37,309 bases of DNA, taken from assembly GCA_945900945.1 (NCBI GenBank), contig CAMDKL010000048.1, positions 1 through 37,309 on the forward strand. Reading direction: 5' to 3'. Under the pieces are notes generated by a model. The model did no database searches, was not told where the DNA came from, and was given only the letters and a program-made list of their open reading frames with translations. This DNA comes from Pirellula staleyi DSM 6068 (GTDB lineage: Bacteria; Planctomycetota; Planctomycetia; Pirellulales; Pirellulaceae). A program made the position numbers and the translations under genes. Below, piece after piece: positions 10,561 to 15,585 of the stretch (the stretch's first letter is position 1; every line of letters starts with the position of its first letter).

Positions 10561-10752
10561 ATGAGCCAACCCTACGAAAACCACACACATGTACATGGTG
10601 TTAACTGTGGACACGAAGCGGTTCCACATGGCGATCACATCGACTATCTCGTCGATGGGCATTTGCACCATCAGCACAATGGCCACTGCGACAATCATGG
10701 TGTAGTTAAGATTTTCTGGTTCATAACGCTTCGGACGTCGGGACCTTCGTAA
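10561..10752 (+). CDS. Histidine-rich small protein, partner of the ArsR-like gene
   Basis: This 63-residue protein is very rich in histidine, with units such as HTHVHGVNCGHEAVPHGDH and DGHLHHQHNGHCDNHG, indicating metal binding, probably zinc. Such His-rich proteins are often found directly after ArsR-family zinc sensors in bacteria. The ATG is preceded by AAAGGAAAGAATT, a good ribosome-binding site. The C-terminus (KIFWFITLRTSGPS, beyond about residue 50) loses the His-rich pattern. It lies over the 3' end of the convergent metallohydrolase gene (58-base overlap), so the natural C-terminus may have been replaced. A role in buffering or delivering zinc is inferred from composition and neighbour only. 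Confidence 0.65.
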   Translation: MSQPYENHTHVHGVNCGHEAVPHGDHIDYLVDGHLHHQHNGHCDNHGVVKIFWFITLRTSGPS

Positions 10753-13235
10753 AATTTCAAAAAACCTTCAACCGAAACAACTTGTCCCGGTTCGCAATCC
10801 GGGAAAATCGGGTCAGCATGTACGCATGGCACCGGAGGATTCGTCCATACTCGTTTAATGGGTGTCCATGTGTTGACGATCCAGCGATCACTTTGCACTC
10901 CTCGAACGGCGATGAACGAACCTTCGACGATCGTTTCTAAAGGTTCCTGCAAATGAAAGCCGACGGCACCCTTGAGCATTGTGCAAACCTGCACCCGAAG
11001 ATCCATTAGCTTTTTCTCCGTACCATTGGCAAGGTCGATCTTCATATGGACTCCGTCCTGGGTCTTAACAACACGTGTCGCAAAAACGATTCCGTTTGGT
11101 AGCTCTCGCCGAATGGAAAGTCCGTCCGCGTCCTCGGTCCATTCCATTCGGGGTAACGAAATGGACTGCTTGTCCCACACCGTCGGGATATGTTGATGAG
11201 CCAAATAGGTGAGGCCTAGATCTGAAAATATCGCTTCGGGAACATCGATCACAACGTAGCCGCCGTTTTTCCACGGAGCAAACACGCTGATCTTAGTCTC
11301 CCGCTGAGGGTCGAGTGCACCATCCAGAAATCCTCGCCGTGGATGTCGGCCACCAGGATAGGGCAAAACACGAATTCCACTGTTTTCTTCTCCACCTTGA
11401 TTCGCGTGTGCGGATAAGTTTCGCAAAAGTGTCTCACGATTGCGAACTTCTAGCTCCGCTTGCTCCTGCGCGATTCCAGTCGCAAGGCGAACTTCAGTCG
11501 CAGTGAATTGATGATGGACTATCATATTATCAAGCCACCGATCTAGCTCAGTCTGTGTTTCGCTCGGACGCGAGTGACTTTCTACTTCGATCGTATCTTC
11601 CAAGACGGGCAAGGACTGGAAGTATTTTAGGCCTTCGCGGTACTCCGTGAATCCCTCTGGACGGACTACACCATTGCTTCTTGCCATTTCTAGCTGCATT
11701 CGCTGCACAAGGTATTCTTTTTCTTGCAGCGGAATTGCGACCGGCTTTGCGTCGACCTCGACGTACCATGGAGCTGTGTGGGCAAATCGAACTTGACCAT
11801 CTGTGCGAGCTTCCCAAAATCGAATCGCAAACCAACCAGATCGTTTCGGCACAATCTGTTTTGACAATTGGGTGCGAAATGCACCTTGCTCCGTTCGCTC
11901 ATTTTTTACGTAGAGCAAATGATCGGGACGTCCATTGATTACAACTTCGCCGTACAACAAGGGTGTCTCGGATTCAATTTCCATATTGAGTGTCACAGGA
12001 GTGGTATCCGTCCCGATTCGCTGGAAGACTTCGCCTGGATCGTGCCCATCTGCGGTCGCGTATAGCATGGGACCAGTCGTCACAAACGAACGGCCCTTCT
12101 TCAATTCCCGCATCCATGCATCGAAGCCGAAACCGTCAGGGAGATGCACATAGACGCGACCAAACCCAGCGGGCACGGGGTGAACACCGTTGGCGGTTCC
12201 GGCCGATGGTGCCATGCGAAGTCCGCAGTTTAGCAATGTGTAATACATGCCGTGCGTGTAGTCTAACCATTCTCGATGACCTCCCGAAGCCGCACCGTAG
12301 GGAGGCTGAAGAAAGGCAGGGGCTGGCGTGTTCCAATTGCGAAATCCAAACTGTGTTCGCCATGTATGGTTGTTAGACAATTCATAGACGGCATTCGGTG
12401 CAAGAGTTGGGAGCAACATGGCGAAGGGCCAATCAAGCTTGTCCATATCAAAAATCGTCGCGGGATCATTGGTCGTCATCGCATCAATCAACGGTTTCCA
12501 GGGTGGCACCGTTTCAAGTAGACCTTCCTTATGTCCCAAAACGAAGATGGCACCCAAAGTGTGCTTCTGTTTTCCAACGGTGAATATCTCGTACTCCGTG
12601 TTGCGAGGCCAAATCAAGTGCGTGTCGTCAACCTCGATGAGGGCGGAATGCTGCGTATCTAGATTGTTCTTTTCGCCATTGGTCGGAGGGGTATCCGAAC
12701 GTGTGACCCAATAAGTCAACGGCAACGCAACATTGATATCTTCGGCGAGTACGACATTGCGCAGTTCGTCGATCGTGCGATGCAAGTGCGTGTCGCCGGA
12801 GTACCATTTTTTGGCCGTCGGATTATTCCATCGTTTCAGCGGAATTTCCAGTTTGATATCTTGGTCTAAAACAACAATTTCACGTGCAAACCCACGAAAT
12901 GATTTTCCACTCTCAATGGTGAGCAAATAGTTGCCAGAGGGCACTTTTGCAACGCATGGATGCGCACTGACGGTCGTATGGAACTCGACAGATTGTTTGT
13001 TATTCCAATTCTGTTTCTCGTACTTCATTGCCGAGCCATTGGGTAGGTCGGTTGAAAAGTAGAAAGGAGTTCCCTCTTGCGAATTCAAATAGATTCTCGC
13101 CGGGATCGCCCGCTTGGTGTCCTCATCGACTATGGAAAGCCGGATCGTCCGGTCGTCCGCTGGAGTGCCAGAGAACAGTTGAATTACCAATGCGAAAAAC
13201 CCGAGGTAACAACGCAGATTTGGAAATTGGTACAT
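10695..13235 (-). CDS. Secreted CehA/McbA-like (PHP-type) metallohydrolase
   Basis: This 846-residue exported protein has a signal peptide (CYLGFFALVIQLFSGTPA) and then a carboxypeptidase-regulatory-like beta domain (TIRLSIVDEDTKRAIPARI, residues 30-48). The CehA/McbA-type metallohydrolase motif is YSGDTHLHRT with Asp148, His150 and His152 as probable metal ligands. Further PHP-like segments are LLNCGLRMAPSAGTANGV and RSFVTTGPMLYATADGHDPG. CehA/McbA are amide/ester hydrolases within the PHP superfamily. From about residue 600 there is an extra region (VLPYPGGRHPRRGFLDGALD onward) that I do not recognise; it looks like a beta-rich domain. It is third in an operon after the epimerase (17-base gap), so it may release the substrate the two cytoplasmic enzymes then process. 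The 3' end overlaps the convergent His-rich gene. Confidence 0.82.
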   Translation of the reverse strand: MYQFPNLRCYLGFFALVIQLFSGTPADDRTIRLSIVDEDTKRAIPARIYLNSQEGTPFYFSTDLPNGSAMKYEKQNWNNKQSVEFHTTVSAHPCVAKVPSGNYLLTIESGKSFRGFAREIVVLDQDIKLEIPLKRWNNPTAKKWYSGDTHLHRTIDELRNVVLAEDINVALPLTYWVTRSDTPPTNGEKNNLDTQHSALIEVDDTHLIWPRNTEYEIFTVGKQKHTLGAIFVLGHKEGLLETVPPWKPLIDAMTTNDPATIFDMDKLDWPFAMLLPTLAPNAVYELSNNHTWRTQFGFRNWNTPAPAFLQPPYGAASGGHREWLDYTHGMYYTLLNCGLRMAPSAGTANGVHPVPAGFGRVYVHLPDGFGFDAWMRELKKGRSFVTTGPMLYATADGHDPGEVFQRIGTDTTPVTLNMEIESETPLLYGEVVINGRPDHLLYVKNERTEQGAFRTQLSKQIVPKRSGWFAIRFWEARTDGQVRFAHTAPWYVEVDAKPVAIPLQEKEYLVQRMQLEMARSNGVVRPEGFTEYREGLKYFQSLPVLEDTIEVESHSRPSETQTELDRWLDNMIVHHQFTATEVRLATGIAQEQAELEVRNRETLLRNLSAHANQGGEENSGIRVLPYPGGRHPRRGFLDGALDPQRETKISVFAPWKNGGYVVIDVPEAIFSDLGLTYLAHQHIPTVWDKQSISLPRMEWTEDADGLSIRRELPNGIVFATRVVKTQDGVHMKIDLANGTEKKLMDLRVQVCTMLKGAVGFHLQEPLETIVEGSFIAVRGVQSDRWIVNTWTPIKRVWTNPPVPCVHADPIFPDCEPGQVVSVEGFLKFYEGPDVRSVMNQKILTTP

Positions 13236-13252
13236 CAGGATCTCCCCTTGAT

Positions 13253-14293
13253 TCAGCGAAATGCATCTAATCGATCGTATTGCAACCTCGCTCCTGTCCC
13301 TGGTCCTTTTGCTAACTGCACTACGCCCTTATGAATGCTCACCCCTTCTGCGGGTGAATCGGAAAGCAATACCGCACCATCGAGATCTGCGTAATCCATT
13401 AAAGGCATCAACTGTGCTGCCCCGCTAATTCCGATCGAACTTTCGATCATGCAGCCAACCATGGTCTTCATGCCAAGTTGCCGTGCTTCGCGAAGCATAT
13501 GCAGCGCAGGTGTTAGCCCTCCACATTTGCAGATTTTAACGTTTACGCCGTGGTATAACCCGTTGCAACGCTGTACATCGTCTAATACCTGGCAATCCTC
13601 ATCAGCAATAATGGGGAGGCTTGATTCGTTGAAGACTCGTCGTTTATCCCTCTCCGGTGTTTGAATCGACAAGGGTTGCTCGATGAATTCAACCCCCAAG
13701 CCTGCAAGCACTTTTGAATTTGCAATCGTTTCGCTTGTCGACCAACCACAGTTGGCATCCACTCGAAACACCGCATCCGTATGCTTGCGCAACTCCGTCA
13801 CAACATCGAGGTCGTTCGATGTACCCAGCTTAATTTTGTAGATACTCCATCCCGGTTGCTCCTGCAACTTGGCAATCATTTTTGGAATCGTGTCGATACC
13901 GATCGTATAGCTAGACTGTGGAATTCCAGTCCACTCCAGCCCCCAGTCTTGCCAGGTCGGCACTCCGAATCGTTTTCCACGCAGGTCGTGAGCCGCTATG
14001 TCGAGCGCTGATAGAGCAAACATGTCGCAATCCATCGCATCTCGCATCTTGGGCCAGAGCTCGATTGGCGAATGATCAATATAATCGTGTAAGTGTTCGG
14101 GGATTCGTTCGAGTGATGCCGTTATGGAATCAAGTGTATGGCCATAAAAGCTGTTCTCCGTTACTTCGCCGAAACCGAACACACCTTCGTGCTCGAGTTC
14201 AACGATCAAGGACGCCTGAGTCGTAATCGACTCCCTCGCGATAGTGAACTTGTGAGCAAGTGGAAGGCTCACGCGAATCAATTTCATTTTCAT
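13253..14293 (-). CDS. dgcA: Enolase-superfamily epimerase: N-acetyl-D-Glu racemase DgcA or Ala-Glu dipeptide epimerase
   Basis: This 346-residue enzyme has every residue expected of the muconate-lactonising branch of the enolase superfamily. The catalytic K153-x-K155 is in YKIKLG, the Mg2+ ligands are D179 (RVDANCGWS), E205 (IEQPL) and D231 (DEDCQ), and the opposite-face lysine is in VKICKCGG. Near the C-terminus D303-L-D305 (YADLDGAVLL) aligns with the Asp-x-Asp that binds the amino group of L-Ala in Ala-Glu epimerases. That favours a dipeptide substrate. The adjacent DUF1611/DgcN gene instead favours the N-acetyl-D-glutamate racemase role described for DgcA. The first base of the gene overlaps the upstream stop (ATGA, 4 bases), and GAGGAG in the upstream gene serves as ribosome-binding site, so the two are translationally coupled. 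Confidence 0.88.
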   Translation of the reverse strand: MKMKLIRVSLPLAHKFTIARESITTQASLIVELEHEGVFGFGEVTENSFYGHTLDSITASLERIPEHLHDYIDHSPIELWPKMRDAMDCDMFALSALDIAAHDLRGKRFGVPTWQDWGLEWTGIPQSSYTIGIDTIPKMIAKLQEQPGWSIYKIKLGTSNDLDVVTELRKHTDAVFRVDANCGWSTSETIANSKVLAGLGVEFIEQPLSIQTPERDKRRVFNESSLPIIADEDCQVLDDVQRCNGLYHGVNVKICKCGGLTPALHMLREARQLGMKTMVGCMIESSIGISGAAQLMPLMDYADLDGAVLLSDSPAEGVSIHKGVVQLAKGPGTGARLQYDRLDAFR

Positions 14294-15411
14294 TTCGAAA
14301 GTAGCTCCTCGCGTAACTCAATACAAGCTTGAACTAGCTTCGCCGCACCCGTGCGGTAAACATCGCATGCGGGCAATCCGTAGATCTTTTCCGCGCGAGC
14401 GACTTCTGCCAACGCCTCCTCGTTGTTCATAAGACGGGTATTGACTGCGATACCGATTATTTTGCATGGATGTCGCAAGTTAGCGTTGAGATCGCAGGCT
14501 CGCATTTGATCCTTCATCGGAGGAATATCAATATTATCGAAGCCCTTAACCTGCTTGCGTCCAGCTTCGTAGCAAAATATCAATCCGTCTGGAGCACAAC
14601 CGTGAAGCAACCCTAAAGTGACTGCCGAATACGCCGGATGGGAGATACTTCCCTGACCTTCGATTAGCAAAAAATCGTGTCGCTCGTTCTCGACTACCAG
14701 TTTTTCCGCAGCACCATTCACAAAGTCAGCGACCACGCAATCGATTGGAACTCCTTCGCCAGAGATCATAATGCCTGTCTGGCCCGTTGCCAAAAACTTT
14801 GCGTCATGCCCCGCTGCAACCAACCCCATCTGAATCTCCAGCGAGGCTACCATCTTTCCGATGCTGCAATCGTTTCCGACAGCATGGACTCGAACATTAC
14901 CTTTGCGAAATAAATGACGCACCGCCGTCTCTTTAAAACTGTTGCGACGGACATCGATCAAACGACTGCCGCTCTCCTTGGCTAATTGCAAATACACTTT
15001 GTCGTCAGTAAGGAAATCATGCAAGCCTGAGACGATATCGATTTTGCGCTGGATCGCTTCTTGAATTACAGGCCGCCACTCGTGTGGAAGTCTGCCTCCT
15101 GGAGGTGCGATGCCAATGTAGAGGGCGTCAATCTTCTTTACGTCGATTTCATTGGCACCGAAAAGGTTTCCAACTATCGGCACATCGCCTCCCGTACCGA
15201 ACAATTCCTGAGCGGTTTTGCCCGATTCTTTGCGATCGATGACGGCAGCGATGTCGGACGTACGATATCGCAACATGCTGATCGCCGTTTTGGCTAGGAA
15301 TGGCGTCGAATATCCGTCCGTCAGCAACGCTATATGACGGTGTGTCATCAACGCTGCATGTGAAATCGATTTCGCGTCCGTCGCGGAATCCAGGTCGACA
15401 TCAATGGACAT
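14290..15411 (-). CDS. dgcN: DUF1611 P-loop protein, DgcN-like D-glutamate N-acetyltransferase
   Basis: This 373-residue DUF1611-family protein has an N-terminal Rossmann-like part (HIALLTDGYSTPFLAKTA) and a C-terminal P-loop domain with GNDCSIGKM (Gly179 to Lys186 in this numbering) and LIEGQGSISHPAYS. One branch of the family, DgcN, has been reported to N-acetylate D-glutamate so that its partner DgcA can racemise it; the neighbouring epimerase fits this. The frame opens at ATG 15432 (MQGGTCP), but the strong AAGGAGG at 15422-15428 lies inside those codons, 10 bases before ATG 15411, so the true start is the Met of MSIDVDLDSA. The gene overlaps the epimerase by 4 bases. Family assignment is firm; DgcN activity is inferred from context. 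Confidence 0.88.
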   Translation of the reverse strand: MSIDVDLDSATDAKSISHAALMTHRHIALLTDGYSTPFLAKTAISMLRYRTSDIAAVIDRKESGKTAQELFGTGGDVPIVGNLFGANEIDVKKIDALYIGIAPPGGRLPHEWRPVIQEAIQRKIDIVSGLHDFLTDDKVYLQLAKESGSRLIDVRRNSFKETAVRHLFRKGNVRVHAVGNDCSIGKMVASLEIQMGLVAAGHDAKFLATGQTGIMISGEGVPIDCVVADFVNGAAEKLVVENERHDFLLIEGQGSISHPAYSAVTLGLLHGCAPDGLIFCYEAGRKQVKGFDNIDIPPMKDQMRACDLNANLRHPCKIIGIAVNTRLMNNEEALAEVARAEKIYGLPACDVYRTGAAKLVQACIELREELLSK

Positions 15412-15585
15412 TGGGCAAGTTCCTCCTTGCATTTGAAAACTAGATTGGTTGCGAACAACATTACGGCAAAGTCAATATCGCGGATGTTATGATACTCTAT
15501 TGCATGCCATTTCGGTATCGACGTCCATCGATTGGGTAACGAAAACGTCGAGATAGCACGTGGGTGCGGCTGTCCTCAGCCAGAC

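Follow-up and report, generated by a model that had tools for sequence, protein, structure and literature searches.

A 37,309-nucleotide stretch of the Pirellula staleyi DSM 6068 assembly (contig CAMDKL010000048.1; hereafter, the window) carries three consecutive minus-strand genes, encoding a DgcN-like DUF1611 protein, an enolase-superfamily epimerase or racemase, and a protein related to the CehA/McbA metallohydrolases. Here, we compare these genes with their relatives in other planctomycetes and with annotated systems of D-glutamate (D-Glu) metabolism. The explanation towards which we lean, with modest confidence, is that the DUF1611 protein and the epimerase form a conserved two-enzyme module for D-Glu salvage, and that the CehA-like gene is a lineage-specific neighbor of this pair. 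The three genes are as follows:

14290..15411, minus strand: DUF1611 protein (DgcN-like), 373 amino acids, with the P-loop-like motif GNDCSIGKM
13253..14293, minus strand: enolase-superfamily epimerase/racemase, 346 amino acids, with R20, K153, K155, D179, E205, D231, and D303-x-D305
10695..13235, minus strand: CehA/McbA-like protein, 846 amino acids, in the same direction as the pair and downstream of it

The first two genes overlap by 4 bases (14290-14293), and 17 bases (13236-13252) separate the epimerase gene from the CehA-like gene, which is the layout of minus-strand reading frames described in an earlier reading made from the letters alone (the sequence-only reading). The DUF1611 start that it had placed at 15411 is upheld: judged by eye, this ATG is preferred over that of the longest open reading frame (ORF) at 15432, because the sequence AAGGAGG lies between the two, 10 bases ahead of the ATG at 15411. 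A ribosome-binding-site-like sequence, also recognized by eye, precedes the CehA-like gene. The stretch between the epimerase and CehA-like genes holds none of the promoter- or terminator-like patterns listed for the region, and across the whole region such patterns are not more numerous than in shuffled sequences (7 versus a mean of 6.4, and 7 versus a mean of 6.9). Judging by their spacing, the three genes may be co-expressed. Some 515 bases past the CehA-like gene, a Uma2-family gene and a gene for a CocE/NonD-type hydrolase lie on the same strand.

Relationship of the pair to DgcN and DgcA

Both DUF1611 domains are recognized in the first protein (the C-terminal domain PF07755 at 231.6 bits, cut-off 25, and the N-terminal domain PF17396 at 85.9 bits, cut-off 22.6), whose best sequence match in the PDB is 7xrj. 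It is 34% identical to the annotated DgcN of Pseudoalteromonas sp. CF6-2 and 38% identical to that of Ruegeria sp. TM1040, with the motif residues in common. The epimerase matches the Pfam families MR_MLE_C (97.8 bits) and MR_MLE_N (41.2 bits) and is 32% and 28% identical to two annotated DgcA proteins. Its residues K153, K155, D179, E205, D231, K253, and K256 are invariant in all 49 aligned rows, and the catalytic set of the enolase superfamily, of the MLE type, is intact; we take these residues to supply the K-x-K motif, the Asp/Glu/Asp metal ligands, and the second lysine. R20, presumably a ligand of the Glu side chain, is kept in 48 of the 49 rows. The window pair therefore resembles the DgcN-DgcA systems of CF6-2, reportedly the strain in which these enzymes were studied, and of TM1040, as all have adjacent DUF1611 and enolase-superfamily genes and the same active-site residues.

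A further likeness to CF6-2 lies in the neighborhood. The record annotation of that strain gives the gene order M14 - NhaC - dgcR - dgcN - dgcA, and at one planctomycete pair locus (L079) the NhaC-family neighbor is 51% identical to CF6-2 NhaC (291 of 570 aligned positions). The NhaC-family protein is a candidate carrier for D-Glu or for peptides. Genes of this family were found at 7 of 61 planctomycete DUF1611 loci (L033, L034, L062, L071, L072, L078, and L079), and the corresponding CF6-2 region is L134:1071-5880. The DgcN-DgcA pathway is also mentioned for Shewanella in a passage of a published study (PMC10845958).

DUF1611 genes were also seen in other settings. At L036:7458-9775 and L136:3842-6126 (a Vibrio europaeus plasmid), the DUF1611 gene is directly followed by a gene resembling alanine/ornithine racemases of the pyridoxal phosphate (PLP) type, and no enolase-type epimerase is present, as if DUF1611 proteins paired with racemases of two folds. 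The window genome has a second DUF1611 gene (G000:C25:30716-31288; L082:7947-9056), with no epimerase nearby, between a gene of the UDP-glucose/GDP-mannose dehydrogenase type and an esterase-like gene. At seven same-genus loci (L059, L176, L178-L181, and L183), a divergent DUF1611 gene has a weakly matching epimerase gene upstream, the opposite order to that in the window; at L083:6303-8993, the DUF1611 gene adjoins one of the galactarate/altronate dehydratase type.

Conservation of the pair and its murein neighborhoods

The survey of DUF1611 genes covered 146 genomes of the same order and gave 62 strong places besides the window. The main set holds 60 of these, with flanks of up to ~8 kb per side; the 61st (G113:C4) belongs to an extra set, and a place in G094, cut by the end of its contig, was dropped. 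Contigs shorter than the 8-kb flank include L037, L041, L053, L056, L057, L177, L179, L181, L182, L190, and L192. An epimerase relative accompanies the DUF1611 gene at 45 of the 60 loci, on the same strand at 44.

In a sister family of the same order (f7), the neighbors of the pair encode an AmpG-type permease (TIGR00901, 165 bits, cut-off 350), a glycoside hydrolase family 3 (GH3) enzyme closest to beta-N-acetylhexosaminidase (184 bits, cut-off 207), an S66 LD-carboxypeptidase, an M14 carboxypeptidase, a beta-lactamase/S11/peptidoglycan-binding protein, and a NagK-like kinase. At least two of the six murein-recycling genes lie within ~8 kb at 17 of 21 f7 loci (three or more at 15 of the 21) versus 0 of 20 control regions, set at arbitrary round coordinates in f7 genomes; the probes were drawn from these same f7 loci, which makes this a test of recurrence, and f7 loci that are related to each other do not count as independent. 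Of the 40 loci outside f7, counting that of the window, 2 have one or more of the six genes. The pair is a relative of the annotated D-Glu pathway; searched by titles, abstract openings, and passages, the literature gave no description of the murein context that its relatives show.

We infer the following reactions, in this order. The DUF1611 protein would most likely N-acylate D-Glu, the activity for which its annotated relative DgcN is named, and the epimerase would then invert the alpha carbon of N-acylated or L-Ala-linked D-Glu by means of two lysines. Removal of the acyl group or of Ala elsewhere would yield L-Glu. In the f7 relatives, the D-Glu would come from peptidoglycan fragments.

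The window protein itself falls in a separate clade of the DUF1611 tree (18 rows, support 100/99), apart from the f7 loci. At 6 of the 17 other loci of this clade, beta-lactamase-domain genes, fused to an M15 or an amidohydrolase domain, lie near the DUF1611 gene (both probes share the beta-lactamase domain and may match one protein), and an NhaC-family gene is found at 4 more of the 17. Relatives of the beta-lactamase and amidohydrolase neighbors occur elsewhere in the window genome, as partial matches.

Several observations weigh against a D-Glu salvage module linked to murein. Both window enzymes score below the NCBIfam cut-offs for their namesakes (DgcN, NF041892, 264.8 bits against 480; DgcA, NF042940, 214 bits against 400). 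In the epimerase tree, the DgcA of CF6-2 groups with E. coli YcjG (95/65, on long branches) and away from the planctomycete enzymes, which form their own clade and place the window enzyme with neither reference; the record of this DgcA, moreover, names it an L-Ala-D/L-Glu epimerase. No epimerase lies near the DUF1611 gene at 15 of the 60 loci. The AmpG-, NagZ-, LdcA-, MpaA-, and NagK-type matches at f7 loci are all below NCBIfam cut-offs, and they owe their names to Pfam families and to their best matches. Across the 18 loci of the DUF1611 clade to which the window belongs, the six murein genes were all absent, none of nine neighbor types tested occurs at the window locus, and the window genome gave no match to AmpG (TIGR00901) or to S66 LdcA (PF02016) at E 0.001. 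Finally, the 17-base spacing would allow the CehA-like gene to be co-transcribed with the pair. The case for murein recycling therefore comes from a clade other than the window's own, and the idea that the window genome encodes complete murein recycling was dropped after the searches for AmpG and LdcA. The D-Glu and murein role that the sequence-only reading had proposed for the pair is nevertheless supported through its relatives, by the f7 neighborhoods and the NhaC link to CF6-2; from the six murein genes, its own clade gives no such support. Compared with the annotated DgcN-DgcA systems, the planctomycete pair differs in the sub-threshold scores of the window proteins, in the separate clade of its epimerases, and in its place within murein-recycling clusters in f7.

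Candidate substrates of the epimerase

The sequence-only reading had pointed to Asp303-x-Asp305 as the residues that bind the amine of a dipeptide in Ala-Glu epimerases. The motif is indeed present; it is also found in all 49 aligned rows, among them E. coli YcjG and both annotated DgcA proteins, one of which (TM1040) is named an N-acetyl-D-Glu racemase in its record. Since both DgcA proteins carry it, Asp-x-Asp does not settle the substrate and was ruled out as a sign of dipeptide activity. With the motif common to enzymes of different names, N-acetyl-D-Glu and L-Ala-D-Glu may both still be substrates of the window enzyme. By hidden Markov model score, this enzyme is nearer to DgcA than to the E. 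coli-type L-Ala-D/L-Glu epimerase (NF011708, 152.3 bits, cut-off 343), though it lies under both cut-offs.

A different explanation, possible but in our judgment unlikely, is that the enzyme serves murein recycling simply as an L-Ala-D/L-Glu dipeptide epimerase, and that the DUF1611 protein does something other than acetylate D-Glu, for example ATP-using activation of a peptide. Such an activity would agree with the P-loop-like motif of the DUF1611 protein, with the murein clusters around the f7 pair, and with the record name of the CF6-2 DgcA. The best PDB sequence match of the epimerase also favors a dipeptide substrate: this entry, 3iji, is titled muconate cycloisomerase, and we take it to be a Bacteroides dipeptide epimerase. 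However, the best NCBIfam model for the window epimerase is DgcA, described as an N-acetyl-D-Glu racemase (214 versus 152 bits for the E. coli type), the DUF1611 protein has motif residues in common with annotated DgcN, and relatives share the NhaC neighbor with the dgc cluster. As a known system, YcjG shares with the window enzyme the enolase fold family, the D-x-D motif, the metal ligands, and the lysines; ycjG adjoins the murein amidase gene mpaA, and M14 genes occur at several of the f7 pair loci. The 8-kb E. coli region around ycjG, unlike the window, has no annotated DUF1611 or DgcN gene.

It is less probable still that the pair acts on an N-acylated amino acid other than Glu. The DUF1611 genes elsewhere that adjoin PLP-type racemase genes speak for this reading. 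R20, conserved in 48 of 49 rows and presumably the Glu side-chain ligand, speaks against it, as do the murein neighbors and the NhaC gene that planctomycete loci have in common with the dgc cluster.

The CehA-like gene and implications for planctomycetes

The third gene was described in the sequence-only reading as CehA-like with an H-x-H motif, and both points are borne out: the protein passes the NCBIfam cut-off for the CehA_McbA_metalo domain (86.8 bits, cut-off 80) over residues 196-493, and the motif is present at H150/H152, outside this match. A signal-like N-terminus, recognized by eye, suggests that the protein is probably exported. H150, H152, and H225 are invariant in all 18 aligned CehA-like sequences, and where a canonical His would be expected, all 18 have Ala229. 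The later His residues of plasmid-borne reference members, which are annotated and not assayed, align with Ala229 and with Met273 or Leu278. In these replacements, and in an extra C-terminal part of ~290 residues (among the matches listed), the protein departs from the CehA/McbA metallohydrolases that it resembles in domain score and H-x-H. A review passage on the CehA of strain CFD-1 states that four His residues matter in carbofuran hydrolysis (PMC8292978); their numbering was not mapped onto the window protein with certainty.

Most relatives of the CehA-like protein that carry an organism name are planctomycetes, such as Rhodopirellula and Stieleria, in keeping with a planctomycete host, as are planctomycete-type families in the window. 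In some relatives of the protein, the two halves are exchanged (query residues ~550-838 before ~25-545) within one open-frame length for both (G133:C101:12332-14707, G285:C346:1926-4343, and G301:C188:24845-27253), from which we conclude that the protein is modular. No Pfam match was obtained at E 0.001, and PDB sequence searches gave no match up to E 1 with the single protein or up to E 10 with a family profile. The structure model has a mean predicted local distance difference test (pLDDT) score of 74.9, falling below 50 across most of residues 150-241, the active-site region. It gave weak mutarotase/phosphorylase-like fold matches, and a functional reading from the fold was dropped (best match cellobiose phosphorylase, E 6.5e-5, template modeling score 0.15-0.16); by title, no PHP protein is among the best 50 of 1242 fold matches, the relevant region of the model being of low confidence.

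The neighborhoods of the pair and of the CehA-like gene were compared from both sides. An extra set of 20 DUF1611 loci (nine of the same genus, seven from genomes with full-length CehA relatives, and four others) was added to the main set, and no CehA-like relative lies near any of the 60 loci of the main set or the 20 extra loci. Conversely, 41 CehA-like loci were gathered, 29 from a family search and 12 named relatives taken from a genome collection (five are in both collections, leaving 36 distinct loci); a DUF1611 or epimerase gene adjoins none of them, the first set (L093-L121) having flanks of ~1.5 kb or less. Their neighbors encode sulfatases, an FGGY kinase, a major facilitator superfamily transporter, and a cupredoxin-domain protein. 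At least 13 genomes carry a CehA relative in one piece and of nearly full length (42-64% identity); among the matches listed, their DUF1611 places are on other contigs, or, in G272 and G302, millions of bases away. In the best same-genus pair (G318; DUF1611 at 589 bits, epimerase at 610 bits), which is orthologous to that of the window, the next ORF is convergent. On the strength of these neighborhoods and of the convergent ORF, the CehA-like gene was rejected as a pathway step, and in the loci examined it is best read as a chance, lineage-specific neighbor.

The sequence-only reading had instead joined all three genes in one route, in which cleavage of a D-Glu compound by the exported CehA-like protein, outside the cytoplasm, would supply the pair inside with a product to racemize. 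The shared strand, the 17-base spacing, the ribosome-binding-site-like sequence, and the H-x-H motif speak for such a route; relatives also have beta-lactamase/M15 and amidohydrolase/beta-lactamase genes near the pair, and a hydrolytic slot could be filled differently here. We nevertheless regard it as very improbable. The neighborhood search proposed for DUF1611-epimerase pairs found the CehA-like gene at none of 80 other loci, not even beside the orthologous pair of the same genus, an absence that the sequence-only reading had named as one half of what would refute it; relatives of the gene keep company with others, sulfatase and FGGY kinase genes among them; and the histidines of other CehA/McbA members are kept only in part. 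With no CehA-like gene found beside the pair in any related genome that was examined, the three genes probably do not make up a real unit. A gene that looks joined to the pair here, but stands apart from it in the relatives surveyed, counsels caution in reading pathways from one operon.

The repeated occurrence of the pair within AmpG-, NagZ-, LdcA-, and NagK-type clusters in f7 suggests for DUF1611 proteins a role in cell-wall recycling that can be put to the test in planctomycetes, a phylum whose peptidoglycan was debated for a long time. More speculatively, and with considerable doubt on our part, the planctomycete DUF1611 protein and epimerase might represent an undescribed branch of peptidoglycan recycling, in which D-Glu from muropeptides would be N-acylated and racemized, either alongside the classical L-Ala-D-Glu route or in its place, and an NhaC-family protein would serve as a dedicated carrier; DUF1611 proteins would then be general partners of racemases of two unrelated folds, the enolase type here and the PLP alanine-racemase type elsewhere.

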